This document shows, in pieces, positions 1 through 46,750 of a stretch of 64,000 bases of DNA. Position numbers and translations under genes: made by a program. Every line of letters starts with the position of its first letter. Within the stretch, counting starts at the first letter, position 1. Below the pieces are notes generated by a model. It made no database searches. It was not told the origin of the DNA and saw only the letters and a list, made by a program, of their open reading frames with translations. The stretch is from Nymphaea colorata (taxonomy: Eukaryota > Streptophyta > Magnoliopsida > Nymphaeales > Nymphaeaceae), in assembly GCF_008831285.2 (NCBI RefSeq), contig NC_045148.1:992001-1056000 (forward strand), in the 5' to 3' direction.

Positions 1-1240
1 ATCTAGACACTATACTGCTATGAATAAGCTAGCAAAATCCTTTTTTCTGTTAAGCTTTTAACATCTAGAAAATAACTGTTCTTATCACTTCTATTCTTAT
101 GGCGTCTCCATATCCCAGTGTTGCAGAAGATACTCTACTGCAGTATGGGTTCATGAAGAAGCCATTCTGTGGTGATATTTTTCCTCTGTTGGTTGGCCGT
201 TTCTTATTTTTTATCTAAATTTTTCATTGGTCGGGGACTGAAACCACAACATTGAATGCTAAAGTTTACAACCATGTGACAGCAGAGAAATATGTCTCTT
301 TCTTTTTTTATAGAGAAAATGGGTTTAGGCAGATCCGGCCAGCTTATGCCATGAGGTGCTCTCCAGGTACTCAACCTCCTCCACCTTGAATTATTCTAAC
401 TCAACCAAATGGATGAAGCTCTTCTTGGGAGCAGAGGTGTGTCTTTTGCAGATCGTCCATCCATCGAATTAAATTTCTAGGATGATGGCAAATGGTCGCA
501 GACATTGATTATCTGCATCACAGTTTAGATACTTGCCATTATCAAAAAGGCTGAACAATTTGTAAAATGAAAACAAGTAGATCTTACCCTCTGGCACTTG
601 TGCTCGTTTACATGGATGTTGGTCCCAGGTTACAGCAGGCACACAGTCATGCTCTTAATTGCAGTTCTTGCATACTATGCATAAGCTTCAGCAAATGATG
701 TGCCATGAATGAGTGCTTCTAAAGTACCACAGAATCTTACGATGTATAAATGATAAACGTGTATGAAACTTTTGCAGTCTATGTTAATTCTCTATCTGAC
801 CGATTTGATGGTGCAAGTCCATCAAATATTCTATCCAGCTTCTAGGAAAGTACTGTCAGTGAAGGGATTGGTACTCATGTTGGTTTGGATTGCTATTAAA
901 GTTTACGGATGCTAAATTTTGCCTATTTGGCGGAAGACATGAAATAGGAAAAGTGTCGCTACTTGTATGACCGCACTTGAATGTACGAAAGTACATTCAT
1001 GCCAAACTTTGAATATTTGGCAGAAGGCATGAACAAGAAAAAGTCGTTTTATGTTTCAGTGATTGTGTGATGGCACTCAAAATGCACATAGCACGGTCAT
1101 TCATCTGAGTTAGTCTGATCTACTATCTATAGTTTATCCAACTATGCTCATCTACCCATACCTCTGCTTTAGTATTCATCCTTGTTTTCTTTCCACAGTT
1201 GGCTTCTACTTAGCTGGAGTGTTTCCTCATATAGTCTGAG
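1..1240. other. Noncoding stretch, downstream flank of MIR169 cluster
   Basis: No gene is recognised here. A 39-codon ATG-led frame at about 100-219 has no recognisable similarity and was not called. The only structure seen is a degenerate direct repeat of about 50 bp, with copies at about 908-960 and 998-1048 that share 'atttggc' and 'catgaa' blocks. Because the hairpins to the right lie on the minus strand, this region should hold the 3' end of their primary transcript. Confidence 0.5.
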
Positions 1241-1364
1241 CCTTGCATGAGAAGAAGAGAGCACAATGTAGCCAAGAACAACTTGCCAAATCTCTGCCTC
1301 AAACAGGAAAAATGTCGGCAAGTCATCCTTGGCTGCACAGCACTCTCCGCCTCGCCATGTAAGG
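1241..1364 (-). ncRNA. MIR169: miR169 precursor hairpin, copy 1 (promoter-distal)
   Basis: On the minus strand the 5' arm at 1315-1335 reads CAGCCAAGGATGACTTGCC plus GA, identical to the canonical miR169a-type mature sequence as I know it. The 3' arm at 1267-1287 contains GGCAAGTTGTTCTTGGCTA, the usual miR169 star form. The two arms pair at 18 of 19 aligned positions, counting G-U wobbles. The stem extends outward to a closing pair of blocks at 1241-1246 and 1359-1364. The loop is about 27 nt. miR169 is known to guide cleavage of NF-YA (CCAAT-box factor) mRNAs; that role is inferred from family identity. Confidence 0.93.
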
Positions 1365-1452
1365 CCCTTGGATGGATGCTCTGCAAGCTTCTTTGACTCT
1401 TAACGTCTCCCCATCTTCTAATCGTACTGCCTATCATCTTGTATCATCCAAA

Positions 1453-1578
1453 CCTTGCATGAGAAGAAGAGAGTACAATGTAGCCAAAGACAAACTTGCC
1501 AACCCTCTATCTTAATACAGAGTGAATGTCGGCAAGTCATCCTTGGCTGCATACCACTCTCTGCATCATCAGGCAAGG
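1453..1578 (-). ncRNA. MIR169: miR169 precursor hairpin, copy 2 (middle)
   Basis: The second tandem hairpin carries the same 21-nt mature sequence on its 5' arm (minus strand, 1529-1549). The star arm at 1479-1500 is one nucleotide longer than in copy 1, giving a one-base bulge opposite the mature strand. The outer stem closes with CCTTGC at 1453-1458 against GCAAGG at 1573-1578. The loop sequence differs from both neighbours while the mature sequence is unchanged, which indicates selection on the small RNA. Spacing to the flanking copies is about 210 bp, consistent with local tandem duplication. Confidence 0.93.
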
Positions 1579-1663
1579 CCCCTCAGATGAAGATTCTGCA
1601 GGCTTCTTAGTTGTTTGGCATCTCTTGAACTTCTAATCATGCTTCTGGTCTTCATTTCATCTA

Positions 1664-1798
1664 GGTCTTGCATGAGAAGAAGAGAGCACAATGTAGCCAA
1701 GGACATACTTGCCAACTCTCCCACTCGTGCTAGCACAGAGTGAAGGTCGGCAAGTCATCCTTGGCTGCACACCACTCTCTGCCTCTTCAGGCAAGGCC
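1664..1798 (-). ncRNA. MIR169: miR169 precursor hairpin, copy 3 (promoter-proximal)
   Basis: The third hairpin has the identical mature sequence on the 5' arm (minus strand, 1747-1767) and a star arm at 1692-1713 with one bulge or mismatch. Its outer stem is the strongest of the three: eight consecutive pairs between 1664-1671 and 1791-1798, including one G-U wobble. It is the first hairpin after the putative TATA box, so it would be the 5'-most unit if the three share one transcript. Flanks such as 'gagaagaagagagcacaatg' are shared with copy 1. Confidence 0.93.
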
Positions 1799-1877
1799 TC
1801 TTAGATGAAGACTCTGTTTCTCTTCTCAAGCCAAGGAGGATTCTCATGTCCTGCTTTCCCTGGGATGGGGTGCCATT

Positions 1878-1887
1878 CCTTATATAG
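1878..1887 (-). promoter_or_regulatory. Putative TATA box for the MIR169 cluster
   Basis: The minus strand reads CCTATATAAGG here, a good match to the plant TATA consensus. It lies about 80 bp upstream of the start of hairpin 3. Transcription starting 25-35 bp downstream (about 1845-1855) would include all three hairpins in one primary transcript. No equally good TATA motif was noticed between the hairpins. This is sequence inference only. Confidence 0.55.
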
Positions 1888-4800
1888 GCAGACTAGTTAG
1901 CTGGTTAAATAAACAAATCGCTAATATTCTCTCTGACAATTCCTTTACTAGTGGGTCATGGAATGTCAAAATTTCTATCCCATATTTCAAATTCCAAAAG
2001 AGACAATCAGCTCCTTTGCTCATATACAGTTGCAGAACTTTAATCATTCCTGCTCTAGGGAAAATTTCCTTTTGTGGGTATCTGTGGTGGGCCTTAGTAA
2101 TATCTGGTCCCCCTATCTTCTATTAATGGAAATGATAAAAGTAGCAGTGTCTGTCCTTTCTTTGGGCCCGGCAAGTCCTAGAGATGATAGTCTGTGAAGG
2201 AATAGTATAAAATTGACAAGGAACATGCTTGGAACATTCAAAATAATGGAGATTAAGCGTTTTCCTTTTTCAGTATCTTTGTGTTATAGTGCTGCTAATG
2301 AGCAGCACAACTACCTGCTTGTTATGTTGAAAATGACCATAATTCTGCAAGTATGACTGGCTGGTATATACAACCTGTGGCTCTGCATTGCACAAGGATG
2401 TAAACAGTTCAGATTCAGATAATCTAACTATATTGTACATTGAATTTTGTCGAATTCTGCTGACCCAAAAAACCATATCATAAACGATTTATGTCCCTGC
2501 ATTCCACGCCAGGCTTGCTTCATTTAAACTTGACCTTCTCCAGCTTAGAAGAGGAGGCAAGCTTAGGCGACTGTCCCACTCTCAGTTATCTGAAAGATAA
2601 GATTGATCAACCAAATTAGTCTGATTAAGTTTGTTGATTTTGATCTGAAATATCACCTGCTATGTGATATTGTGAAGAGGCATATGTCTATTCAGATATA
2701 CTGGAGCAGCGTTGGCGATAAACTAATTGCCTTCCATCATCTCTAAAAGCTGCAAAAGCAGACAGGCAGTATTTCAACGTATTGAACAGTTAAAAGCAGA
2801 ACTTTTTCAAGGATGTCCTTTTGTAGTAAAAGCATATATGGGCTCCACAGTAGCATGGGCATTTGCCGTTATACTCCTCCAAGTTCATGTTCACTATGAT
2901 TTCTGTGGATCCATCTCCTCTCTTGTGAAAGATTTTGTCCAAATACAAAAATACTTTTGCAGATAAAGTTGGAGAGGAGAGGAATCCAATTGAGCGACAT
3001 CATGTGAGGCTGAGATGGGTCCAGTAACATGTCAACATGGCAAATTGCATGGCTTAGGTCGGCAACCATATCCTTCGCAAGAATCTATGTCTGTGTTATA
3101 ATATATGTTAGCTACCCATGATGGATGACGCTGACAAAGCGAACGTGTCAATCTGCGGTTCATCGTCAACCCACCCACTGGCATCCACATATTTCTGCAG
3201 ATTATGCCTTGCAAATGGCCATGCACATCCTAGAGGAAAAGATAGAGAGTGAGATGAATAGCTTCCATTTAAACAAGCAAAATTCCCAATCTAGAAGCAC
3301 TTTTTCTTCTCAATTCAAACACGAAGGATTCCTATCAGTGTTTCAGCGTCCAAGGACCATGCTTTCCAATGATATTGAATTGGTCAGAAATCTTTGGTTG
3401 GATTTGATAAAGTTTTTGGTACAATAGCAACTGTTTATTTTGATGGGTTTTGTTAAATTAAACATAAAAATGACCTGCTTTTATATACTTTTTTTCACAT
3501 TAAAATATGTTGGTCAGGCATACTGGTCTCGATTAAGCAACCAATGTGTGCAACTGCATTTTATTATATAAATTAGAACAAACCCAAAGGCGCCCGAGGT
3601 TCCAGTGCTTCTTCTAGTAGGGATTGTGGTTTTGATCCATGTCATTAAAATTTCAATCAGCTATTTATTTCTGTTTTTTCATCAATTGATGGATTTGCAG
3701 CTATTTATTGAAATTCAAAACTAATCTCCACTAAATAAAACTTATAGACCACATCAGTTTGGTTGGATTAGAAATAAGGGTATGTACAATCATTCACAGA
3801 AAACATGTAACAAACTGATTTACATAAAATTCTTTAGCATTTTTGGGGGTTTAATGGGATCAATCTATGTCGATTTATGGATGTAATGTATCTAATAGAG
3901 TGAGGGGATTACAACCCACTACCTCCCTTCAATTTAGATGTTGCTGCCCGCCTTTGAAGACACATAGACATAACTTGCATGCTGATAAGTACCTAATTAT
4001 CAAATATACACAGGGACATGCATAATCAACAGCGGAACCCATGTGGCGGTATTCTTTAGTTTATTAAAGAAAACATTGATTCTGTCCCTATTGGAGAACA
4101 AGGATTCTTTTCTCCTGCAGTGGTTCTAAGGCCGGTAGAACTTTCTAATATATCACAAAGATTAAAGTGTTCATTTATCTAAGGTCGTCACAGGTACGTA
4201 CCAAAAAAACTAAAGAAGATTTTGTCTTTATTAAAGGTGAAAAATATGCTCATGTTCAACCTTTCAATTAGATGCCAAAATAGGAATGCTGTAAAGTGCT
4301 TACGTGAATTAGTCAATTTGCTGCTTCGCCTAACGAATCTTGGAAGAGCCATAATGCCCTCTGAGTTTCGATTTTATGGCTTTAGATGTTATGACATTAA
4401 ATGTGTTTTAAAATACTATGTGCCGTCTTCAGTGGAGAAGTTAGGCTAGAATTTCTGTCGTATTAGATTATATTTTGAACGAAGAATGCATGATGGTTGG
4501 CACTCGTCACCCTTTTATCTTTGGACAAATATTCTTGCAGATATGCTTAATTTTAAACCGCTTCTGGGATGGAGGAAGTGATACATGAATCTTAAGTTTT
4601 CCATCTTATTGAAGACTGGAGCCCCTGATAACATGGCAGTGTGGTTACTGTTTATGGGTTTAATACAAATTTGTGAATACTCCACAAAAAATGACAATGT
4701 AAAGATTTGAGGTAGCTGGTCGGACCAGTGAATAGTAAAAGATGAGTATCCGATTTGATTTTCATGGGCACCACCCCTCAATGTAAACCAACACAGCCCG

Positions 4801-5222
4801 AGATCCTAAGAGCAGGAGGGGCTGGCTTCTGGTCATGGGATTTATTGGCCAACAAGTGCTTCATGAAGACCATCAAATTCAAGGAGATCAAGAGTTCAAT
4901 ATCATAGAGTTTAAGTCAAACATGTAGCTTTGTTGGCATAATCTGACTGGAGAACAGCGTAAGTTCAGGTTGTTTATTCAAAAAAGAAATGTAATGCATG
5001 CTTTAGATCTATTGTCATTAATTAAAGAAGTGATCTCCCTTGCTTTTCTTAAGTGCTAATCTTAGTGATGTGTATTAGTCTGTGCCCCTGAAGTTCTCCA
5101 GAATAAAATCATTCGAGAGGAACGGGAACAATATATGTGAAAGCATCAAATTGAAGATCTGTAGCTCCATTTGATGAAAGATAAGATAGGTTGACCCCTT
5201 AATATTATATTAGCCCATACAC

Positions 5223-5402
5223 GAGTAGCAGAGCCAGGATTTTCTGATCAAAGGGTGCTTGAGTTGGAGATACAAGTTTGGTGTAGGCACTACATGTAAT
5301 TTTTGAATCATGGTAATGTGATCTTGGGATATTCTAATAAGATTGTTGATGGGATGGTGTAGGCCGTAGCCCGCACCAACCAAACAAGTAGCTCCGCCAC
5401 TG
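5223..5402. mobile_element. Degenerate hAT-like MITE, same family as 23952-24130
   Basis: The right end reads GCTCCGCCACTG and the left end is a decayed version of CAGTGGCGGAGCC. Internal blocks match the better-preserved element at 23952-24130 in the same order: 'cttgagttg', 'aagtttggtgt', 'gaatcatg', 'taataagatt', 'gcccgcacca' and 'caagta/ttgctccgccactg'. No target-site duplication is recognisable at this copy. Confidence 0.6.
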
Positions 5403-5689
5403 CCACCTGCTGCTGTGGAACTTGGGGGAGGGGGGCAGGGCCATGGGCCCAATGAGTCTTTTGCAAAATAAAAATTTACCATATAAAATGTATAAAAATT
5501 TCACTTGGCCACAGTATAAATTTTGAAAATTACATAGTGCATGGGCCTCGATAAAAACAATCCTGGCTCCGCTCTTACCCAGAGACAAATATATTTAGTT
5601 CTTAATCTCGTCATCCTGAAACTAGGCCAACCCTGAAACAGAAGGCGTAAGAACTAAGAAGCCAAGCTTATGTTGGCATTTAAAAGTGC

Positions 5690-5757
5690 TCTCTCTCTCT
5701 CTCTCTCTTGGACTTATGTTAATGTTATTTTCCTCTCTCTCTCTCTCTCTCTCTCTT
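5690..5757. repeat. Two CT microsatellites
   Basis: Two (CT)n tracts, at about 5690-5708 and 5732-5756, are separated by about 25 bp of ordinary sequence. Confidence 0.9.
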
Positions 5758-8700
5758 TGCCTCTTGTATATTGATGTAACTTGACAGAAGTCGAGATCTT
5801 CCACTTAGTAATATATGGCCATAAATTTAAAGGTTTGCATTTATGAAAGCAATGATAATTCCTGAGGCTGCGTACTTTTAGCCAAGTGATATGAATATTT
5901 AATAGCTTTTGCCTATTGAAAGGGACTGATAGTGCAAGTTGCACCAAAATGTGGGCTGAAAAAATGAGATTCCAAATCATAATTTCATACATTATTATAT
6001 ACAACTCTTATTATTTGTGGGAGGGTGTGTGTGCGTCTTTCTCTATACATGTGTATATTTCCCCACTCTCACTTTTCTTTTTCTCTTCAGTTTCTCTTCT
6101 TATTTTTCTCTTCCCATCCTAAGATGGGTTGAATATTGGTTGCGGATGTTTACTGCATAGCTGAGATCTGACGTGCACGGTGATATGAGACCACGAAGGA
6201 TCTAAGCTCCATGGTTTGATGTTTGGCAGTTTAGACAAGCAGCGTGGAAATGAAATCCACGGATTGTTTAAACCGTAGTGTTGATTTGAGATCCCTTACT
6301 GATGTTCAAGGGGAAACAAACAGACGATGAGGATCTTAAAACCATGGATTTATGGCCCGATCCCCCCTTCATACTACAGATCCCTGTTTTTTTTAATGCA
6401 ACGTGGATCTCGAATCTGCAGTTGTAAAATCTACTAGTAATGCGAATTTCACTTAACGTGGATTTGAAATCATATACATATATCCGAGGTAGCAAACATA
6501 GCCTTAGATAATAAAAAAAGATATGAAAAATCATTCCAAAGTAAGACTACACACACTCATATTTATGAACACCTTATCTGTTTTCTAAGCTTGGTCTAAT
6601 TGATAATATATCAGGAAGTATATAGCATCTTTTGTTGGAAAGTTTTCAATGCGCATATGATTCCATGCATTCAAAGTGTTGATAGCATGTCATAAAGGGG
6701 TTTGGTGCACTGGTTCAGGTCTGTGGCTGGTAGATAACCAGACATTCGATTAAATGGCATGGATGTCAAACTCTCTCATACCAACAATGGGTGGAATTAG
6801 TGTATTAACTGACATACATTAGGGATCTTACACCGGACGCCAACTTATGTATTTATGCGGTGAGGGGCGGGGAGGGGAGGCATAATTTAAAAATTACTCT
6901 CATTTATGCCGTGAGATACTCCTTCAACTTACCTAATAAGTTGATGCCATATAAACTTGATGAAGAAATAAAATTTTGATTAGATGAAGTTCATCTCTGT
7001 CAGTTAAATACCATATTGAATGATTTATTTATCAAGTTGAGTTAGAAGGTCGCCAATGGTGATGCCTTCAAAACTAAAAAACGTGTAAAATTAAAGGATC
7101 ATCATTTATGTAGACAATTTGCACAATAGTTATACTAAGTTTGTTGACTTAATATGATCATATCACATTAACTTAATTCTCTATGAATTTCCATTTTGTC
7201 GGCTCTCTCTCTCTCTCTCCTGTTCGGGTAGATGAAACAATTTGGTATATCCTTGTCAAAATAACATTGATCCTTACTTATTTCTCTAAATTGGCGTCGA
7301 TTCTTCAACTTCTTTCGCCTTTGAGGAGCCAACCAACCAGCGGTCATCCATGAGTTCACGAATCAGATTCAAACAGAACCGCGGCAAACCTCAGAAAGGT
7401 TGTGTCCATTAGGCGGTAGCCCTGCAACCACGATGGCCCAAGCAGGAGGCTGCCTACATTTTTTTAACAATATTTCGATAAAGTGAACGTTAAACAATGG
7501 ATGTCTTTCAGAAATATTACGTTGGCACAGCCAGTGAGACTCAGAAAAGTGGCGGTGATGCCAAAAAGTGAATTCCAATGAAGACCAGGGGCAACGAATT
7601 TTTAGAGAGAGAAAGCGGGTTCTCTGGCAACTCTCAGCGACTTTGGCTAATGAAAATCGGAAGCTGTGATGCTGGAACAAGCATATCAGAACACCGTTTA
7701 AAGAGATGCACCTGGAATCTGATCTTGTTAGATTTTGTCCTTCTGGTACACGATCTCTTCATGCATAGGGGCACAGAAGGTCGAGCGCAATATACGGCTG
7801 TAAATTAAAGGTCTGCAGCCAACAGTAGGTGGCAACCAGTATTCTGAGCAGCACCAGTTGCAGGGTCAGAAAAGATAAATTTAACTTTTGAGGAGGCCAT
7901 TGATATTGTTCACAAATTTTAGGAAGTCCATTCATACTCTTCATAAATTTTAAAGAAATAAGAGATTTTCCTTACTTTAGCTTGAAAATCCAGTGGCTCC
8001 CATATATTCAATTTTCTACGTGCGTCCACATGGGTCGTGCTTATCCTTCTGCATGTTTTAATATCAATAAAAGGTGTTACTCAATCCTGAAGTGGTGATG
8101 CGCATCAAGGGTTTGAATTTTGAAATGCAGGAGAGGATATGATCTGAGAGACTACACCACTTGGTGATCTGTATTCAAGGATTTCCACTTCTGCAATTCC
8201 GCAATATCCTGTTGTCGGATACAACTAATTGCTGGGTAGCTCATTCAAGTTCAAGTTCTTGGTATCAAACTTTATGTGGAGAGCCGGAGAGAGAGAGAGA
8301 GAGTTCCTTTTTTCTGCAAGTGGGTGGAAAAATCATCAAAACAGTAATTCTGTTGATAGGAAGCGGCGACCCTTGTCAGCAACTTGCCTATGGAGCCCAA
8401 TCTGCAACCATCGACGTTGATGCTTTGTTCGATTATAATCACCAGCTGTATCATTAGTCACGGCATTTGGTCTTTACATATGTCACTGCATAATGAAAAG
8501 GGACGAGAGAGAGAGAGAGAGAGAAAGCTTATACTTTCTGGATATGGTGATTTTTACTGCCTCGTGGTGTCAGATGCAAGAATTCATACTCTGGTTCAGG
8601 GGGAAGGATAACGAAATACATCTTCTTGTGGCCCCCCTGTTCCTGCAAAATGCATTATTTTAGGTCCCAATCAACTTTGTTACTGATTATTTGTCAACCG

Positions 8701-9594: not shown

Positions 9595-12500
9595 CTATTC
9601 CACTATAATTTCGGTCAGTAGGGTTCCAGCATGAATACATGCACCACCTCTAGGTCGACAACAGCTAGTCCTGCAGCACCTGCTGTCTCCCATGCCCTTA
9701 GCACAGCAAGTTTGCCCATTCTCCATTCCACTGAAGCTGCTGCCCAGCACCTCCTGGTGCTCTGTGTCTTCAGACTTGGTGCACTTGCCACATTCATCAC
9801 TCTTCTTTCTTCCATTGGTCTTGCTTACGCTTGAGCTTGGGCACTTGCAGGCATCTTTGGACCTTTCTTGAAACTTTTCAGCAGGCGGATCCTGGACAGT
9901 TTCAATGGCATCAATCTGATTGCTTACTCCTCCATCTCCATTGTTGCATGTGCCTTTGCACTCATCTTTATGTGAGTGCTTGCACATGGCAACACAATCG
10001 GTTGCTCTGCTGCTTTCGTCAGGATGCGGGTGTTTACACGTGCCAATGCATGGGGCCGAATGGCCACCATATGTCGCACATGTGATTGGCTCGCTCTGGC
10101 TACATTGTTGTAAGTGTCCATGGCAGTTGGTTATGCAGCTTGTATGTTCATGATCTTCTGAGTGAGCGCTTGGTCTAGCACTGGCTTTACATGTATCATG
10201 CTCTTTGCATGTGCCATGTGAGGAGTAATTGTGAGTACAATGTCCAGCACAAGGAAAGCAGCCTAGATGCACGTGAGATGTATGTTTAGTGTGTCCATCA
10301 CAAGGGGCACAAGTCTTAGTATGTGTATGAGGACTATGAGTCTGGTTTTTGCACTTGCCCATATGGTTATGCCCTTGCAGCAGCAGCAGCATGCTATTAA
10401 GAATCACCAGCAAACAGGTGCCTACATCAGCTAGAATAGCAGCCCATAGGCGCGGGTGGCCGCCGAAGGCAAGCCCAAGTATCACGGCCTTGGTCGCGAC
10501 TGACAACACTATGTTCTGTATGATCTTTCGGTGTGTTCTCCTGCCAAGTTTGATGGCTATGGCAATCTTTCCAATGTCGTTGGACATCAAAGTAACATGT
10601 GAAGTCTCCGTGGCAATGGCAGATCCAGAAACGCCCATGGCGATTCCAACTGTGGCAGTTGCCAATGCTGGGGCATCATTCATGCCATCACCAACCATTG
10701 CTGTTGGTCCCAGCTTCTTAAGGTCCTCAATTATGCTGACCTTCTTTGCTGGTAGAAGCTCTGCATGAACAAAGTCTATGGAGTTCCCCAACTGTCCAAA
10801 AAGAAGAATCAGTTTGAGCTATTCAAAGTGGTATCGTATGAGCATCATAATATGTACTAACTTCAGAGAAATGGCCATAAATTTGGGAATGAAACATGAT
10901 CTTCGATTTATCATCCATTAGCCACTAATGAAAACTTACGTCTCTGCTCCAAACATGATACATGAAGCTTAGTAGTTAAGAGGATAGAGTAACATTTTAA
11001 AAATGTCATTCCAGAGATACTTCGATGCTCTGACCCTGTCTGCTTGATACGACACCAGAAACAACTTTCTGACATTGCATACTAGTCCATGGACTACATA
11101 AAACCATAATATTTGATTCTTTGTTCTCGAACCATAGTTTTTCTTTTCTTAAATTTCGGCGACACTTTCTTTTCTTTCTGGTAGGTTGATGTTCAACAGA
11201 ATATACTAAAAAATGCACTCAATTACCAACAGTTCTTGACCTTTTCAAACATAGAGTGTTTTTATCTGGTAATGCTTAAGGGTTTTCTTATGCTTTTTTC
11301 TGAGCATAAACAAAAGAAAATTAACTTTCGACTTAGACCACGTAATCGGAAACTCCAGGGGAGGCCCAATCACCCTGACATACAGAGGACAATATCATAA
11401 GGAAACTGAGGGTATCTGCAGAATGGTAGGATTAAGACTTGATCTAGGGTCTTTATGTCAACGTCCTTCACAATTCCCCTCTTTCAAGACGTCAATTTTT
11501 GTTGCTAAAGCGGAACTTCTGATCATTATCCTGACACGCTAGGGTTTATCAGACATCAAAGAATTTGCAATCAATGGCAAAGATAAGGCAGAGGATAAAC
11601 AGGGAAAAAGAGGAGACCTCTTCTTGGACGTGCATAGCAGCCACTTGACTGTCCCCAGTAAGCATTGCGGTCTTAATCCCCAGCGACCTCAGTTGTTGAA
11701 CGACTGCCTTTGCCCCAGGTCGGCATTCATCGCATACCCCAAAATTCGCCGCCATCTTCCCGTCCACCATCACATATCCCATCGTCACTCCCCTTCTTCT
11801 GTCATCCTCCCCTTCATCTGAGACAGATTAGCAAACGAATTATTTTTGTTGAGGGAACGACTACGCCAGCACAACTGTTCCAACATTAGATGATTGAAAC
11901 TTGAAAGGGAGATGAGAATATGGCCGTTTACGAAATGCAATCATAAATGCAACCACAGTTGATATATATATATATATAACGTTTAGAACTTACCATTAAC
12001 GTGACATCCGAGCCTTTGTGCCATCCTTTTATTCCCAACGCAAACCTTTGTTCCGTCTATCTCCCCAGAGATGCCTTCTCCTGGAACTATGTGAAAATCC
12101 TTCACATTGTCTGAACATGCCTCTATGCTATTCAATCTGCTATACTCAACCAGAGCAGACGCCATTGGATGGTTTGATTTTCTCTCCAGACTTGAAAGCC
12201 TGCATGTCCAAAATGGGAGCCATAAAAGAAGGATTCTGTACCAAAACTGATTTCACAGGTATTTAGCTTATCAAAAACCTGGTTATGTTATTGCGCACCT
12301 TTCAAGAGCATTTGGCAAGAAGGACAATGTATTTTTGGAACAACGTTCATAGATACACATAATTGAGGATACCATATTCTTTTGTTAAGAAACATAATAT
12401 AATTGTAATTGTTGTTCATAAAATCTGACATGATATTAATTTAAAAAAAATGTTTTATAGGAGCTGCATCCTAAAACACTGTATGATTAAGAGATATTCA

Positions 12501-14722
12501 TATAACTTTATGGGTTAAATTTATAGAACATTAGAATCTAATGTTCCATGAATCTTTACTTATCTTTGAGATAAATTCATTGAGGCAGATTTATGAAACA
12601 CTAAAATAACACTTGATAGCTGTAGGTACCAGTAGAGCAACTTGTCTCTAGTTGCAGCATCACCATCCAAGTGGAAGTGAGAGACGGCGAACTTGCCACA
12701 TGTCATTGTTCCGGTTTTGTCGAATGCCACAACCTTAACCCGTGCGAGCGACTCGAGGTGATCCCCACCCTTGATCAGGAGGCCGATCGACGCTGCTCGG
12801 CGCAGTGCACACTCTGTGGCGACTGGTGTGGAGAGGACCAGAGCACAAGGGCAAGCACTGACCAGCACAACCAGGCTCAGATAGACCCAGTGCTGCAGGT
12901 TGTGGGCTCTGAGTATGGCTGGCAAAACTGCTAACCCAACTGATGCTATCACCACAGCTGCAGCGGAAGAAGGAGTTAACCAAACAATCTTCATCATTCT
13001 CATATGGTGCAATAAATCAAGAGGCGCGCCCCAAAAAAACATGTATTGGCAATGGACCAAATCCAAATCGATACATATTCATATCGAGTCTGGCTAGCAT
13101 GACTTGAGATCCAGATTACTCTTTTGTTTTGACCATTGCCAGACTGGATCCACATCTTGGTGCTTGTTGGACGTGGAGTACTGTGGTTTGGTGTAGGGGT
13201 GTGGATGGTTCGGATCTGGGTTGGACGTGGCAATTGCCATACCCCACTGTTTGGATCTGGAGTTTGGGTAAGATTGGTAACAATAACAGGTAGCAGAAAC
13301 AGGAGCATACTTGGAGTGTAGTACTTCGCGAATTCGTCAACTATGCGCTGTGTTTTGGACCTGTTCTGGTGTGCCTCTTCTACGAGCTTTGCCATCTTCG
13401 CCACTGCGGAGTCCTCGGCGAGGGCAGTTGTCTTCATGTTAATGTACCCTGCAGAGCAATTTGCCCACAAGTTAAGCATGTGTGGCTAGAATTGATATAC
13501 TCACTGCCAGTGGTGGAGCTAGAAATTAAACCAAAAGTTTTGAACTTTCCGACATGAGCTCAGTGGGTTTTTTGGGCCCGAACACCAAACTTGTGTTTGA
13601 TTCCTCACGTGCACGTGTGAAGGGGTAATTTTGTCTTTTTTAATTCATGCACGCTTGACAAACTCCCGATGAAAAGACAAAGAGCATGATGTCTGCTTGA
13701 GGATCTTAGGGGTCATTTGGCAAATAGAACTCTTTGTTACTGTTTCATTATACTAAGTTTTAGTGTTTTATGAATCTGCACCAATTTTTGTGGTAGACAA
13801 TGGAACGCTCAAATCTAACTGCCAAACGACTTCTTAAAAGACTGTTTAGCAGAAGAAAGTTTGGTTAGTATTTCATGTATCTACCTAATAATTGGGTTAT
13901 ATATATTAAGTTTTTTTACAAATATTCTATAAAACTATAGACATATATGCAACACTATGTTTTACATGCTTATAAAGGGATGTGCTTAAACATCAAGACG
14001 AGGAACAAAATTACCAGTAAGGTTCATAGTGCCGCCCCACACAAGTGATCCAACAGTCTTTTCAACTGGAGTCGACTCCCCTGTCAAGCTTTTCTCATCA
14101 ACCTCACTCATCCCGTTGACCACGGCGCCGTCGATCGGAATCACTTCTCCGGCCTTGACCACAAGCACAGTGCCAAGATTAACTTCATTTGGGTGGACAA
14201 CGGCGCCGGTCTCTGCAATGGTTGCATTTTGTGGCATCTCCTTCATGAGATTCGACATCATGTCGCGTGCCTGAAAATCGATTCTCCAAGGTAAATGGAA
14301 GCGCATATTTGAGGGTGGCCGTGACGGGCTAAGGATGGATAGATGGTGCGAACCTAGTTGCAGTCAACGCACCCAGGGGATGCATTGATAAGGCTTAGGT
14401 GAAGTTACCATTAGGTCTTGCTTATTCTTCTGATTCAAGGTGGTTACTTATTTCCTCTCAATTTCCCAGTGCTGCTAGGAGGAAAACTTGCATATACATT
14501 TGGTTTGTGCTTTAAATCAGGAGAATCCAAGAACGACAAAGAAGAATGTGGAAAGTGCATATGCATACATGCAACTCAAGTTACGTAATAAAGCCTGCTT
14601 TAAACTGAAAAAGCATAATGTATAAGTAAATTTACTTTTATGTTTCTCTCTTTAGTCTTGTAGTTTTACATGTTCTTCTAATTGATCTAGCAAGTTTTAA
14701 TTAATTTAATAGAAAAATAGTG

Positions 14723-14759
<37 letters not shown>

Positions 14760-16675
14760 GGAGGTGAAGGGAGAAATTTAACAGCATACCATTTGATACA
14801 TTTCGTTGGGTGGTATATTTAATTACAATGCATCAGCCAATGGTGATTGGATGAAACTCAATATGACAGGAAGATTTTATATATATATATATATATATAA
14901 TCCACCATTCAATTTCATTATACATGTATAACGATACTGAATTGGTTAAAATGTTTAGGACATAATGTTTATTAACTCGAGGATGCAGGTTACCTTGTCA
15001 CTTGCTCGGGATTCCAGCCACTCGGCAAACGTGAAGAGAAACACGATCGTTCCTGCCTCTTGATAATCTCCTAAACCGACGGCTCCACCAACTGCTCCCA
15101 GAAAAAAAAGGAAAGAAAACCAATAAACATATGCTTTTTCATTGATGTGATCGAATCAAACCATCTAATTACAAGTTTTTGGGGTTCGTATGTGAGACCA
15201 CAACTGCATCTCGATGCCTCTTCCAAGTTTCCAACCATTTGTATCTTGGCAGATATGGTTCCTGATTCACGTACTATAAAAAATCTATGTTGCTTTAGCA
15301 GATCTGGTAAATAGTGATTAAACAATTAAACATTCCTAATTTACAGATAAAAATCACATTAAGCATGACCGAGAGAGGCGAGGAAAAGGAGTATTTCTTC
15401 GTCTTCGTCTTCTTCTTCTTCTTCTTCTTTTTTAAGGCTTAAGGCTTAAGCTTGCTTTCAGTGTCTTAAGACTACCTATAAAGTGAACTATAAAGTGAAC
15501 CTAGTGTGATTCTTAACAATAAAGAAATATCATGAGAGAACTCGAGGTGAAGAATGCCAGGATCGGGATCTACTGTCGAGAGTGACAGATTTGGGACTAA
15601 ATCTAAGATCTTAGATTGGTAGTTTTTATTTTTTCCCCTCAGGATGTACTGACATGAAAATGGGTGGTCGTGGTGTTTTACCTTTTAAAGTAGAATCACA
15701 GTGAGACCTGTAATACACTCCATTTTGCCAGGTAGTCGGCCCTTATTGGCTACTTATTAGAAACATAAACTTTTCTAAGCATGAAAATATTCTACTTGTT
15801 TATGTCTGTGAGATTATGGACAACATTTTCAACTATCGATTGTCATGTAGTTGAGCCAGAATGTTTTGGTTGATGGGCACTAATGCAAAAAATATTAATA
15901 TTAATCCCTTCAAATACATGGTGAAATGATCGATTGAGCACTATACATAAAAAAAAAGTGAACGATTGAGGAGCACCAATATATGAAATGAGCAAATAAA
16001 TGAGACCAACTAAGATCTAAACAAGCGTATTCGGTGGAACTGTGCGGGCAACTGCCCACACACAAAGCCCCTACGTGGCTCCGCCCCTGTTATATGAGCT
16101 ACATAAAGATCCACTACGGTTACTACAGTCTACTGATCGATGAACATTGTCTACCTGCAATTAACAAAAGGATGTTTATGTCAAGCACTAGGCGCTGAAT
16201 CGCGGCATAGCTTCTCAAGATGACCGGCGGTAGTCCGACTAAAACGGCGGCCAATGCGAGCCATTGCAGCGGCCCGTAGAAGCCCTTGAAGAATGACGGT
16301 ATCAGCAAAAGGCCAGAGCCTACTGTGTATAAGCTAGGCCAACTCCTGGTGCTTGCAGGCTTTCCACCATAGCTGCGAACACTTGCATTGAGTCTGGCTT
16401 GATTGAGGGCCTTGACTGAGAAGATTGAGAAGGATTGGCTCAAGTTCAGCCATCGAAAGAGAGAGGAAGGGAAAGAGAGACAGAAAGTATATACCAATTT
16501 GAGTTTGGGAGGTCAGTAGGCTATTGTGAACGACAGTGACCGTCTTGGTTGGAACACTAACCGAGACCTTATGAACACCATCAAGAGGCTTCAATGTCCT
16601 CTCAATAAGTGGAATTTCTGAAGGGCAGCAAATGCCCAGCACCTCAAAATAGCTTTTCTGCAACTCTCCCTCCAT
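9595..16675 (-). CDS. HMA: P1B-type heavy-metal ATPase (Zn/Cd), HMA2/3/4 group
   Basis: Coding exons in order (minus strand): 16675-16495, 16415-16155, 15091-14994, 14270-14015, 13448-13311, 12957-12630, 12199-11994, 11817-11618, 10791-9595. The phases join without a break and give 954 residues, close to related proteins of about 950-1170. Motifs seen: N-terminal metal-binding domain with GICCPSE; TGES actuator loop; CPC membrane metal site near 347-349; DKTGT with the phosphorylated Asp near 391; HP near 431-432; GDGMNDAP near 590-597; DVGTCL in the last membrane segment; and a tail of about 250 residues with roughly 29 Cys and 23 His, ending EIIVE. GICC..E, CPC and the tail place it with plant Zn/Cd exporters (HMA2/HMA3/HMA4), which load metal into xylem or vacuole; which of the three is not resolved. 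The start follows a splice-acceptor-like pyrimidine tract at about 16679-16690, so a 5'-UTR intron is likely. Introns hold only AT-rich or microsatellite DNA. Confidence 0.93.
14724..14753. repeat. TA microsatellite in HMA intron 3
   Basis: A run of about 30 bp of alternating TA lies in the intron between coding exons 3 and 4 of the heavy-metal ATPase. A second, shorter TA run is at about 14878-14899 in the same intron. Confidence 0.9.
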
Positions 16676-19600
16676 TCTTCTGAAACAGCAAGCAAGAACA
16701 GGGAGAAAGAAGTTTGTAAGAATCAACCGAGAGGGAAAAAGAATAAGTAGGAAGTGAATTCTCACGCATTGGAATGAATACCCAAAAGTTTTTTTTTTTT
16801 TCTTTTTTTCTTTTAAGATTCAACCTAAAAGTAACACCAAGTGCTTAGTTGGGCAGATATCAATTCACTTTCAGTTAAGTAATTGCGATCTGACGCCTAA
16901 AAAGATCCAAAGGTTTGAGTACATGGGATCATCAAGCTTTCGCTTTTGAAGTGAGAATACTCCCACTGAAACCGCCTCTCATGTTAGGATGCTAGCTAGC
17001 AAAGCTTTAGGTAAAATAATTGAAACAAGTGCTTCAAAAAGTGAATCTTAAACAACAAAAAAGCACACTGATCATGTAAGAAAGATAGATTAAGGAGGAT
17101 TATAGGTAGTGACCTGGAACGATCAAGGGGCCTCCACTAGTAGATGATCATGGAAACAAGAAGTAAAATAAACGATGGGCATGTCAAGAAAAATACAAGA
17201 AATTGAATGCTTGAAGGCTGAACAAGTCATTGGTTGGGCATCCCCTGGCCTGTCAGGATAATATTTTATTGCCCGAGTACGAAGCGGAGTTAGAAATTTT
17301 TCGTTGCAGTGAGTGAATTATAGTTTCAAAATGTGATCGAAATATATTTCAAATCTTTACATATAGTTTGGAATGAATTTTTTAAAACTTATAAGTAATA
17401 TTTTTTTTTTTTTTAATCCGAGGGGTGGCCGTGGCCCCTGCACGTGGGATCTGGTTGGATGAGATAGCAAATCGCTACTTAAGATGAAATATATAGACTG
17501 CTAAGCTAAGGTTCCAAGCATTCGTCTAAACTTTCGACTCCCGGTATTCAACCAGCAATTGACACACCTCGGTCATACCTCACTAGCTGCGTCCTTTTCT
17601 CGGGCACAAAGATGTTGGCCAATGGTGCAACTCTAGTGGCTCCTCCTCAAGTTAGGCAGCTGGTTGACGAAAAGGCAATAACGGAGTGAAGAACCCACTC
17701 GTTCGATCAAGAATCCACTCATATGAACATATTCCCCAATAACAATCTAATCTTTGCCCGAGAAAAGGTTCTATTCATCCTGTTGTGCAACCAATTGGCT
17801 AAGACAAGCATCTAAGCGTATCAAAATATAAAGAAAATGAGTTCATTGCTAATAAAAATTCACAATGCATTGGCAACATGATGTTTACAAGAGCCTAATC
17901 CTTTTTTACCAACCATAACTTTGAGCAGAACTTAAATAACTCGCGAGTGTCTATCCTATTAACTCAAAAATAAGAAGTTTAAGGCAAATTAACGTCGCCT
18001 AAGCGTAGAGGGTTAGATTTAGGTGGGTGCTATTTGAGTTAATAATATATAATCCTTTAGCCAGGCTGATGATCAAGTACCAACTTTGTGATAGCCTTTT
18101 ATTGATCAACCAATGTGCTAATCAGCCACATGGTGTGTCCATCTGAGGCTGCTAATGACGACTTGGCTCATCACCAACTGGATCTTATAATGTTTGTTTC
18201 CAGGCTTAGTCAGTCATATAGGCCTGAAAAACTATAATTGGTTCGATCGTTACACTAGGGGTCTGTTCAAGGCAGGTCTATGGTTTGATTCTCATGGTCG
18301 GCATGTCTCTGTTTCTTGATGGGACATAATATCCAAAGCTGAAGGGTATATCACTGACATCAAAGCAACCCAAAACCCAGGAGGTGAGGGGAATGGGGGG
18401 CCTTTAGATCTCTTTTGCAAGCAGTGGATTGTAAACTTCCTACTCACTCGGAACAAGAGTTAACTCCCGACATCCTTTTGTATCAAGATGGTTTCAGGGA
18501 GACTCACTTAACCAAGTGCCTAACGCCGCGATAGAGAGGCATGAAGAAGAGGCAAGTCCACACCACTTTTCTATTATTATTATTATTAGGCCGAGCTAGT
18601 TTGATCAAGTTGTGATCACTTCCCTCATCTTCTTGGACTGCTTTAGGATGTGCTTAAGTCGCAATCTGATCATGCAGCTGAAAAGATCAGATTTTGTAGC
18701 CATGCTTTTCACTATGATGCATTTAAACTTGAAACAATTTAAGTAAATATCCAGTGATAAATGCACAAAGAGAGAGAAAGAGAGAGAGAGAGGGGGGGGG
18801 GGATGACCTTTTATGAAGGAAAGTAGCACCCAGAAGCCCAGCTCACGCAGTCTTTTCCAAGAGGTGGGTGGATATGAAGCCCTCATGCACAAGTCCCTTA
18901 ATATAGGAAGGGAACAAGCAGAATAACCGAGAAAGCAGCAACAGGATGGCCCATTATGTCATCTTGGATCAAACGGGTCAGCACTATTGCACGGATCCGT
19001 TCTCGCTTCCTAATAGGCCGTACATGCTTTTGAACTTCTTCTTTTTAAATCTGAATTTTTATAAGAAGCAGTGGGCTCTTTCAGTCGCTGAGTTAGGGTT
19101 TTTCTTTTAGTATCTTACACATTTTGTACTTATTTACACATTGATTGCCCTATAAATTGAAGCATTAGTGATCTTTAGCCAGAAAATTCATGCCCCGCTA
19201 CTTAGATAAAAAAAAATTAGCTGCTTAGCGAAGTATATGCTCGTGCCCCTTGTTGAGGCATAGAATGCATCTTCTCCACATTGTATCAACCTTTCTCTCG
19301 TAAAAGTTCAGTTTATAAGCACACATAGAGGTGTGTCACAACTAAAATACCTTTCATAAACTTCCATTGCCCCGTGGGCCATTGAAATTTTTTTAACAAG
19401 GGTGGTTTTGACAAATATGGCATCCGAGTAAAGCCTGCCAATGGAATAATGCTAGAGTTTTGAATCTTTCTCTTACAAGTTGAAAAGGAGAATCCAGAAT
19501 AAGAACAAAACCCTTCATTAGATACACCTTCTTAACCCTAAGCCGCAGGCATAGGAACTTGCTTTTTCATTTCTCCTCGATGAACAGTTATTGATTGGAC

Positions 19601-43945: not shown

Positions 43946-44867
43946 TATTTTATTTCTTCATTTGTTCCTCGGGTTAGAGGCCTCTATGAGGAAGGTCTTT
44001 AGTTCGATTTTCATTGACGCTATGATCATGTGTCTTAAGGTGGTAGAGCGTGACATCCAAGTTGAAGGGTGCACCGTTCTATCACTGACGCAGCTGAGGA
44101 CCCCGAAGGCAAGGAAAATAGGGAGACCTTCGGGCATCGCTTTGGGCGATTGGATGATCCTCTCGCTCACCCCGAAAATGCGGTAGTGTGCATAATAAAT
44201 GCCAAATGGATAAAATTTAAAAATTCATCTCTTAAAGACCCACAAATTATCACTAAATTCATTATAGATACATATTCAGTGTTTACTCACCGTGGCAGCT
44301 AATCATTTAGTTACTACTTATAAACCCTTTAAATATTTCTAAAAATTTTATACGGGGGATGAAACTTTCTTAAGATCGGGTACTATGGAGAAGGACTCTA
44401 ATTCGAGATCTACAGTTTTCAAGTTCACATGCATCGAAGCTTACCTCGGATCCAAATTGATCAATACGGCGCAAGGGAGCATGGTTTAGCTGAACCAGAT
44501 TCAGTTAAGATCCGAACTCTTAGGTTGCGTTTGATGTCTTAAAGATTTCAGATCTGAGAGGTTTGAAATCCACGATGACTGAATTATCAAACTGTGAATT
44601 TCATATCCATCCTAACGTGGATCTCAAATCCACGATCCAGTATAAAAAGACATGGATTTGAGATTTGATGGGGGGTTTGGACTTCAAAACCGTCCGCGGT
44701 GATCTCAGAGTTTCAAGTCTGAGGATTCGAACCCAACCCGTTGAAGACTTGAAATCTGGCTTCAGGTTCAAGTTGTCCTCAAAGTCGAAAACACCCTTTA
44801 ATCTTATCTGAATTTACGGCGCCGTGGCGCCTTCGTCTTCCCCCCAGGTGGATCATTCTTTACAGGC

Positions 44868-44948
44868 ATGTGCGGCCGGCACGTGCCGCGATGGAGCCGC
44901 GTCTGCTCGTTTACCGGCTGCGCACGTGCACTAACCTCAGACAGGTGA
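44868..44948 (+). promoter_or_regulatory. Upstream ORF overlapping the PPR start codon
   Basis: An ATG at 44868 opens a 26-codon frame that ends with TGA at 44946-44948, past the proposed PPR start at 44891 and out of frame with it. If the transcript starts upstream of 44868, scanning ribosomes would meet this ATG first. That could reduce translation of the PPR protein. Confidence 0.45.
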
Positions 44949-46750
44949 AGCAGGTGCACTCTTTCTTGGTCGCGTCCGGCGTGCAGGAAAATTTCGGGGG
45001 AGCTATGGTGTTGAAGATGGTCGATATGGGCCTGCTGGAATATGCGCAGCAAGTATTCGACGAAATTCGTCAGCCAAATGTGTTCGTGTCCAACTCGCTG
45101 CTTTCTGGTCTTTCATGGTCGGGATTGAAGGAGAAAGCAGTGAGGTGCTTCGTGTCGATCCACCGTAAGGACCACCTGCTCAATTCATTCTCGTTTTCGC
45201 CTGTTTTGAAGGCGTGTGCGGCGATTCCGGAAGTGCATGCAGGAAAGCAGATACATGCGTTGATAGTTAGAATGGGTTTCGGCTCGAACGTGGTCGTCCG
45301 AACGGGATTAGTCGATTTCTACGGGAAGCTAAGGGATATGGATTCCGCTGAGTGCGCTTTCAATGAGATATTGTGGAAGGACGTGGTCTCTTACAACGCA
45401 TTGATATCTGGGTTCTCGAAGAATGGAAGAATGGAGGATGCTCGTCGAGTGTTTGATGAAATGCGGGAGAGGAATGTGGTGACTTGGAATGCGATGATAT
45501 CTGGATATATGCATAATGGGAAGCACATGGAGGGAATGGAAATGTTCGAGCGCATGTGTGTTGAAGGAGTGGAGCCAAGTGAAGTCACTTTGGTGACGGC
45601 ATTGTCTATTGCTGCTAAGCTTGGAGATCTGGAAAGGGGTCAGAGGATTAAGAATTTCATTGACGACATTGGATTCAAGATGAGCATGATTTTGTCAACT
45701 GCGGTCATGGAGATGTATGTGAAATGTGGGTCGGTAGGTGAAGCGCGCAAAATATTTGATGCAACTTCTGAGAGGGATGCTGTTTTTTGGACTACCATGA
45801 TTGCTGGATACACACAGAATGGGCAGTTTGATGAAGCTATCATGCTATTTGATCAAATGAAGGAAGAGAAAGTAAAGCCCAACGAGGTTACACTTGTTAG
45901 TGTGCTCTCTGCATGTGCTCGCTCTGGATCTGCAGACGTTGGTGACGAGTTGGGGACTTACTTAGAGAGTGAAGATATGAGCTCCAGTGTGTTTGTTGGA
46001 TCTGCATTAGTGGACATGTATGCGAAAACTGGAAAGATTGTAAAAGCTAGGCAAATGTTTGATAAAATTACTCATCGAGATGTTGTATCTTGGAATGCCA
46101 TGATTGGAGGACTTGCCATGCATGGGCTTTTCAGCGATGTGGTCGAGCTATTTGGACAGATGCGAGAATTAGCAATTGAGCCCAACGATGTAACCTTTGT
46201 TGGGTTGCTAACTGCTTGTGTGCATGCAGGTCTAGTTGAGATGGGCTGTCGAATTTATGACTTCATGGAAACTGATTTTGGGATCATTCCTCAAATTGAG
46301 CATTGTGCTTGCATCGTTGATCTCTTCTGCCGGGCTGGGCTGGTGAGAGATGCTTATGCGTTCATAAGAAAGATGGTTCTAAAGCCTAATGCTGTTATAT
46401 GGGGTACACTGCTGAGTGCTTGCAGGATCTGCAACGATGTAAAGTTGGCTGAGTTTGCGGCCAAGGAGCTGATGATATTGGAACCCAACAACTCGGGGAA
46501 TTATGTACTCCTGTCAAACATATATGCAAATGCTGGCAGGTGGGATGATGCAGTGAGGTTGAGGGCCTTGATGAAGGAGAAAGGAGTACAGAAGAATCCA
46601 GCTTATAGTTGGATAGAGGTAGAAAACGTTGTTCATAAGTTTTTGGTTGGTGACACATCGCACCCTCAATCGGATGAAATTTATTGTGCCCTCGAATGCC
46701 TGGGCCTTGCCATCGAAGAGAGCAATGAATATATGTCTCTTTCTAGATGA
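44891..46750 (+). CDS. PLS-class pentatricopeptide repeat protein, E-type
   Basis: One uninterrupted 619-residue frame with no intron, typical of this family. Tandem PPR motifs of alternating P, L and S lengths run from about residue 40 to 500; repeated signatures include VFDEMRERNVVTWNAMISGY, KDVVSYNALISGFSKNG and DVVSWNAMIGGLAMHG. The C-terminus (about 500-619) starts with VIWGTLLSACR and contains LLSNIYANAGRWDDAVRLR and SWIEVENVVHKFLVGD, the E/E+ domains; a DYW cytidine-deaminase domain is absent. E-class PPR proteins act in mitochondria or plastids in site-specific C-to-U RNA editing, recruiting a deaminase in trans; the target site is not predicted here. A clear transit peptide is not visible in the first 30 residues. 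The start is the first in-frame ATG; an out-of-frame ATG lies 23 bp upstream. Confidence 0.93.
   Translation: MEPRLLVYRLRTCTNLRQVKQVHSFLVASGVQENFGGAMVLKMVDMGLLEYAQQVFDEIRQPNVFVSNSLLSGLSWSGLKEKAVRCFVSIHRKDHLLNSFSFSPVLKACAAIPEVHAGKQIHALIVRMGFGSNVVVRTGLVDFYGKLRDMDSAECAFNEILWKDVVSYNALISGFSKNGRMEDARRVFDEMRERNVVTWNAMISGYMHNGKHMEGMEMFERMCVEGVEPSEVTLVTALSIAAKLGDLERGQRIKNFIDDIGFKMSMILSTAVMEMYVKCGSVGEARKIFDATSERDAVFWTTMIAGYTQNGQFDEAIMLFDQMKEEKVKPNEVTLVSVLSACARSGSADVGDELGTYLESEDMSSSVFVGSALVDMYAKTGKIVKARQMFDKITHRDVVSWNAMIGGLAMHGLFSDVVELFGQMRELAIEPNDVTFVGLLTACVHAGLVEMGCRIYDFMETDFGIIPQIEHCACIVDLFCRAGLVRDAYAFIRKMVLKPNAVIWGTLLSACRICNDVKLAEFAAKELMILEPNNSGNYVLLSNIYANAGRWDDAVRLRALMKEKGVQKNPAYSWIEVENVVHKFLVGDTSHPQSDEIYCALECLGLAIEESNEYMSLSR

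Follow-up and report, generated by a model that had tools for sequence, protein, structure and literature searches.

Clusters of MIR169 genes are described from Arabidopsis (MIR169i-n) and rice (MIR169n-o), in both cases with members of a single family, and the rice genes are probably driven by one promoter (PMC2812943, PMC2670843); MIR169n lies 3,707 bp from MIR169o (PMC2670843). MIR169 precursors are also known to release RNAs from their lower stem, so that clusters and lower-stem RNAs of this family are, as such, already known. In the parts of the literature on which we draw, Arabidopsis ath-miR169b is processed sequentially in the base-to-loop direction and shows a degradome peak 21 nt past its 3p end, and miR169 is listed among the families with a conserved processing mode (PMC8688358). 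The Arabidopsis lower-stem RNAs are mostly rare in the published counts we had (7 reads for b.2 against 4,444 for miR169b), and the available part of a cassava study reports that neither miR169b.1 nor miR169b.2 was confirmed by qRT-PCR (PMC5719433). In the legume Ammopiptanthus mongolicus, as given in the part of that report available to us, lower-stem RNA pairs were sequenced from the MIR169 precursors MiR_374 (78 reads for the 5p RNA and 244 for the 3p RNA, versus 11 for miR169) and MiR_1350 (8 and 340 reads, versus 17 for miR169). Two such RNAs were labelled non-conserved and newly evolved; they are reported to drop in drought, with their targets RB42 and ERFL rising (PMC5048172).

We analyzed a 64,000-nt stretch of the Nymphaea colorata genome (C11:992001-1056000; hereafter the window, in whose coordinates positions are given unless a contig is named) that carries three MIR169 hairpins on its minus strand. 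Hairpin A, the promoter-proximal copy (1681-1778), hairpin B (1468-1560) and hairpin C (1256-1346) matched the Rfam model RF00645 (MIR169_2) in cmscan with 77.0, 77.5 and 82.8 bits (E 2.5e-22 for C), all above the gathering score of 50 bits. The copies repeat every 212-218 bp and the array spans about 520 bp. As in Arabidopsis MIR169i-n and rice MIR169n-o, so far as these are described in the parts of the reports used here, several MIR169 copies stand in a row and have NF-YA targets; in contrast to those clusters, the N. colorata array packs three hairpins into about 520 bp and gives all of them one identical mature sequence. The initial annotation had proposed such a triplet of minus-strand MIR169 hairpins and had named stable folding as a check beforehand, and both the covariance model and the folds bore it out: minimum free energies were -77.0 kcal/mol for A (1663-1803; z -8.2), -66.3 kcal/mol for B (1450-1585; z -7.8) and -75.9 kcal/mol for C (1238-1370; z -10.4), and in each case 0 of 200 shuffles did as well. 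No fourth hairpin was detected in positions 1-6000, even when hits with E values as high as 5 were admitted, and no tRNA gene was found. At this locus a MIR169 gene has very probably been triplicated in tandem, and its one-promoter transcript would be cut from base to loop and would silence NF-YA genes; transcription, processing and silencing at the cluster are what we infer from its sequence.

The mature miR169 of 21 nt, CAGCCAAGGATGACTTGCCGA, is an exact match on the minus strand in A (1747-1767), B (1529-1549) and C (1315-1335). It sits on the 5' arm, where it had been placed, and has 2 unpaired bases in A and 1 in each of B and C. The folds and the rule of 2-nt 3' overhangs predict a star on the 3' arm of each hairpin, again as had been proposed, at 1692-1713 in A (22 nt), 1479-1500 in B (22 nt) and 1267-1287 in C (21 nt), all on the minus strand; a text search matched the star letters of hairpin C in print. 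Allowing as many as 3 mismatches, no further site for the mature sequence was present in the 64-kb window, and none arose in 100 dinucleotide shuffles. Viral and genome contig collections returned no match to the exact 21-mer, as expected for a plant sequence. DCL1 would work on each hairpin from its base towards the loop and make two successive cuts some 21 nt apart, of which the first would free a lower-stem duplex and the second miR169, the same from A, B and C with slightly different stars.

Related loci lie elsewhere in the 407.8-Mb genome. The exact 21-mer occurs at least five times, three of them in the window, and RF00645 gave at least 25 matches at E ≤ 0.001; as 10 of 25 represent the opposite strand, these reduce to 15 hairpins, 11 of them above the cut-off. 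Among them is a paralogue on C2 (C2:27629025-27629145, L001; 79.5 bits), which shares with the cluster its mature sequence, its 3' lower-stem block and its upstream stretch, and differs in being a single hairpin; the 1.4 kb downstream of it holds no remnant of B or C. Outside the duplexes, A is identical to the C2 paralogue at 60 of 91 positions and to B at 59 of 94. The C2 paralogue is a natural comparison for the array. With regard to synteny between C11 and C2, ORFs from the 10-kb pieces beside it and from L041 were compared by blastp with those of the window, and none matched at E 1e-4. A further hairpin at C2:28775698 carries the identical 21-mer and scores 42.9 bits, below the cut-off. 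Beside the C2 paralogue, C2:27617001-27627000 contains gag-pol-like ORFs that we take to be Copia-type.

We compared the four copies A, B, C and the C2 paralogue column by column, counting gapped columns as variable. The mature sequence is invariant throughout (21/21 columns), and second in conservation is the 21-nt block that follows the star on the 3' arm, with 20/21 invariant columns in three copies and in four. This 3' lower-stem block is our candidate second small RNA: TTGTGCTCTCTTCTTCTCATG at 1671-1691 in A, with counterparts at 1246-1266 in C and at 1458-1478 in B, which departs from the other two at one position, all on the minus strand. The star keeps 18/22 columns and the 22-nt block before the mature sequence, the 5' lower-stem block, 15/22; the outer lower stem keeps 11/18 on its 5' side and 4/13 on its 3' side, the upper stem and loop 11/57, and the outer flanks 3/18 and 3/20. 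With the outer 5' lower stem and the 5' block conserved to a similar degree, there is no sharp block edge on that side. The earlier proposal that loops and flanks have diverged around an invariant mature sequence therefore holds for the loops, the outer flanks and the mature sequence itself, but not for the 3' lower stem. Outside the mature sequence, invariant runs shared by the three window copies reach 20 nt, a length that 12 of 20,000 column shuffles attained. The consensus lower stem (columns 25-64 and 139-174 of alignment A1) is paired and conserved and has the length that a further cut of 21 nt requires, as sequential base-to-loop processing entails.

Part of the 3' block recurs across the family. 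A CTCATG box, counted with 5 or 6 of its 6 letters, is present in 12 of the 15 genome hairpins (shuffle mean 0.30, highest 4) and in 8 of 11 when the four near copies are removed; its end falls 23-25 nt past TTGGCTA, that is 21-23 nt beyond the star. The box was chosen by eye from these data and the loci are related by descent, so that we take it as evidence of conservation and not of independent origin. Where the letters CUCAUG appear in other published small RNAs, in the text available to us, these are unrelated RNAs.

The lower-stem blocks resemble the A. mongolicus RNAs in equal register. The end of the star and the first base of the mature sequence had served to fix the borders of the blocks, and with them the register, before we made this comparison, for which we used the sequences in the available part of the legume report. 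The 5p RNA of MiR_374, a MIR169f-type precursor, is identical at 20/22, 17/22 and 18/22 positions to the 5' blocks of A (1768-1789), B (1550-1571) and C (1336-1357), all on the minus strand, and its 3p RNA at 19/21, 18/21 and 19/21 positions to the 3' blocks. The C2 paralogue gave 16/22 and 19/21, and for every one of these MiR_374 comparisons 0 of 20,000 shuffles were as good. MiR_1350 is more distant, with 16/22, 15/22 and 14/22 for its 5p RNA and 17/21, 16/21 and 17/21 for its 3p RNA (A, B and C). A text search for the block core strings matched PMC5048172 and PMC12386007 in the portions searched; among open-licence papers we found no printed report that the 3' lower-stem RNA is conserved between distant plants. 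In A. mongolicus the RNAs themselves were sequenced, whereas in N. colorata the pair is known as sequence blocks alone, but in three tandem copies. A lower-stem sequence common to the window and A. mongolicus speaks against the label of non-conserved and newly evolved. A second, conserved small RNA is probably released from each hairpin; judging from the blocks and their legume match, we consider its production likely and its function possible. This match makes a second conserved MIR169 product directly testable.

The comparison with Arabidopsis, which covered the lower-stem RNAs b.2, f.2, i.2-5p, i.2-3p and n.2*, is more uneven. MIR169b resembles the N. colorata hairpins in its long lower stem, its 22-nt star and an in-register 5' block: miR169b.2 is identical to that block at 14/22 positions in A and at 13/22 in both B and C, with 52, 166 and 19 of 20,000 shuffles as good. 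It differs in that b.2 is a 5'-arm RNA, whereas the most conserved lower block of N. colorata, whose processing is predicted, lies on the 3' arm. The other RNAs compared fit poorly in A, B and C: i.2-5p, with which m.2 agrees letter for letter, at 10, 8 and 9 of 22 positions, i.2-3p at 11, 12 and 11 of 22, and n.2* at 7, 7 and 10 of 22. For f.2, of 21 positions, 4, 3 and 3 agreed in the register tried first, against 12, 12 and 8 once it was moved by one base.

Conservation of the lower stem may have another cause. The stem could be kept as a processing handle for DCL1, and the excised RNA would then be a by-product without targets; we give this explanation an even chance. Pairing alone would not keep the 3' strand at 20/21 against 15/22 for the 5' strand, and the A. 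mongolicus 3' RNAs, in the counts given above, exceed miR169 from the same precursors; both speak against it. Yet precursors cut from base to loop do tend to conserve a paired lower stem, as far as the part of PMC8688358 used here goes, and the genome offers few sites on which the RNA might act: only five could pair with the 3' block at 2 mismatches or fewer, four of them the MIR169 loci themselves and the fifth (C6:12367655) outside any clear gene. The wider reading, in which MIR169 is a long-standing two-product gene, the TTGTGCTCTCTTCTTCTCATG-type RNA is an old conserved regulator, and the array delivers both products threefold from one promoter, is tentative, and we rate it somewhat below the handle.

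The array itself points to a single transcription unit. RNA polymerase II would start on the minus strand near 1850, at one TATA promoter, and the single primary transcript made from it would fold into A, B and C as separate hairpins. The presumed TATA box, CTATATAA, lies at 1880-1887 on the minus strand within a run, CTGCCTATATAA, that is retained at the C2 paralogue. Upstream of hairpin A, at 1880-1886, is the single minus-strand occurrence of TATAWAW in 800-3000, with the looser TATAWA additionally at 2365-2370. Such a motif is weak evidence alone, because 13.5% of minus-strand positions have TATAWAW within 150 nt upstream by chance; its conservation at the C2 paralogue is what carries weight. 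In blastn, the C2 paralogue aligned with 1663-2241, comprising A and about 430 nt upstream of it, at 70.4% identity over 646 columns (E 1.7e-60), and we take 1804-2241 on the minus strand, the conserved upstream stretch, as the presumed promoter. A 757-nt model transcript formed the three hairpins separately in its minimum free energy structure: 19.3, 16.4 and 16.6 of 21 mature nucleotides in A, B and C were expected to pair with their own 3' arm, and cross-pairing between B and C amounted to about 3.3 of 21 nt. Searching 500-1240 on the minus strand for AATAAA, AATAAT, AATGAA and AATATA returned none. Close spacing, one conserved TATA-bearing upstream stretch and the lack of TATAWAW between the hairpins together favor a single transcript for A, B and C, which we regard as likely. 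Under this common control, the array would then raise the amount of a single microRNA and probably also that of the RNA from its lower stem.

It is improbable that A, B and C are instead three separately transcribed MIR169 genes with a promoter each. Every hairpin is a complete unit, set at the regular spacing given above, and a TATA box is not obligatory for a promoter; against this, no TATAWAW occurs on the minus strand in 1200-1879, between the hairpins, and B and C align with the C2 paralogue over the hairpin alone, whereas for A the alignment continues into the upstream sequence. Even less probable is that antisense transcription yields miR169-like RNAs as well, although RF00645 does match the plus strand (1258-1348, 1470-1562 and 1683-1780): these matches score 46-48 bits, all below the gathering score and as expected from a near-symmetric hairpin, and the plus strand has no TATAWAW in 800-2205. 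That the copies are silent or decaying duplicates without a product is slightly more improbable again, as all three folds are strong and the mature sequence is invariant in four copies that have kept so little of their upper stem, loop and flanks. Gene conversion among the tandem copies, which convert easily and share an unbroken run of 20 nt outside the mature sequence, is the least probable source of the invariant 3' lower arm, since the same block stands at the C2 paralogue and the A. mongolicus RNA, as published in the part used here, is identical at 19/21 positions.

The likely targets are encoded in the same genome. Searching it with PF02045 gave 10 exon matches, which we paired into five NF-YA genes, and a predicted miR169 site lies downstream of the stop codon in four of them, in keeping with the NF-YA regulator first proposed from the window. 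The sites lie 78, 103, 143 and 160 nt after the stop, with mismatch scores of 5, 2, 2.5 and 5 respectively, and 0 of 200 letter shuffles of each downstream stretch reached a score of ≤5; placing them in the 3' UTR presumes an uninterrupted reading of the last exon as far as its stop. AGO1 loaded with miR169 would cut these NF-YA mRNAs downstream of their stop codons. Three further miR169 variants of the genome fit the same four sites about equally, and the two of them on C1 better (4 versus 5), so that the cluster is not the sole likely NF-YA regulator. The cluster is an intact array that would multiply the dose of a stress-linked microRNA whose likely target genes are in the same genome. The fifth NF-YA gene, on C14 (C14:7516592-7516660), had no miR169 site in the DNA examined around it and is possibly free of miR169 control. 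An in-frame TAG in its exon, at first sight a sign of damage, more plausibly belongs to a splice acceptor.

Four pairs of MIR169_2 hairpins elsewhere in the genome are arranged head to head, their members about 1.3-2.2 kb apart: C10:21834333(-)/21836125(+), C10:21854396(-)/21855824(+), C5:17362241(-)/17364510(+) and C14:8441161(-)/8443516(+). Three of the eight members fall below the Rfam cut-off. The two mature variants of the C5 pair recur in the C14 pair with their order mirrored, and this suggests that both pairs are copies of one ancestral divergent pair.

Directly downstream of the cluster, a 57-nt direct repeat (898-954 and 988-1044, 75% identical) includes in its region (898-1044) a perfect 9-bp inverted repeat with a 4-nt loop at 978-999. 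About 8 kb from the cluster on the other side, minus-strand ORFs at 9595-16819 with HMA, E1-E2 ATPase and hydrolase domains make up a gene for a heavy-metal P-type ATPase whose C-terminal end is rich in Cys and His. At 44753-46750 an ORF encodes a PPR protein that has E and E+ motifs, and other ORFs of the window encode F-box, DUF1666, DUF630/DUF632 and GST_N_4 domains.
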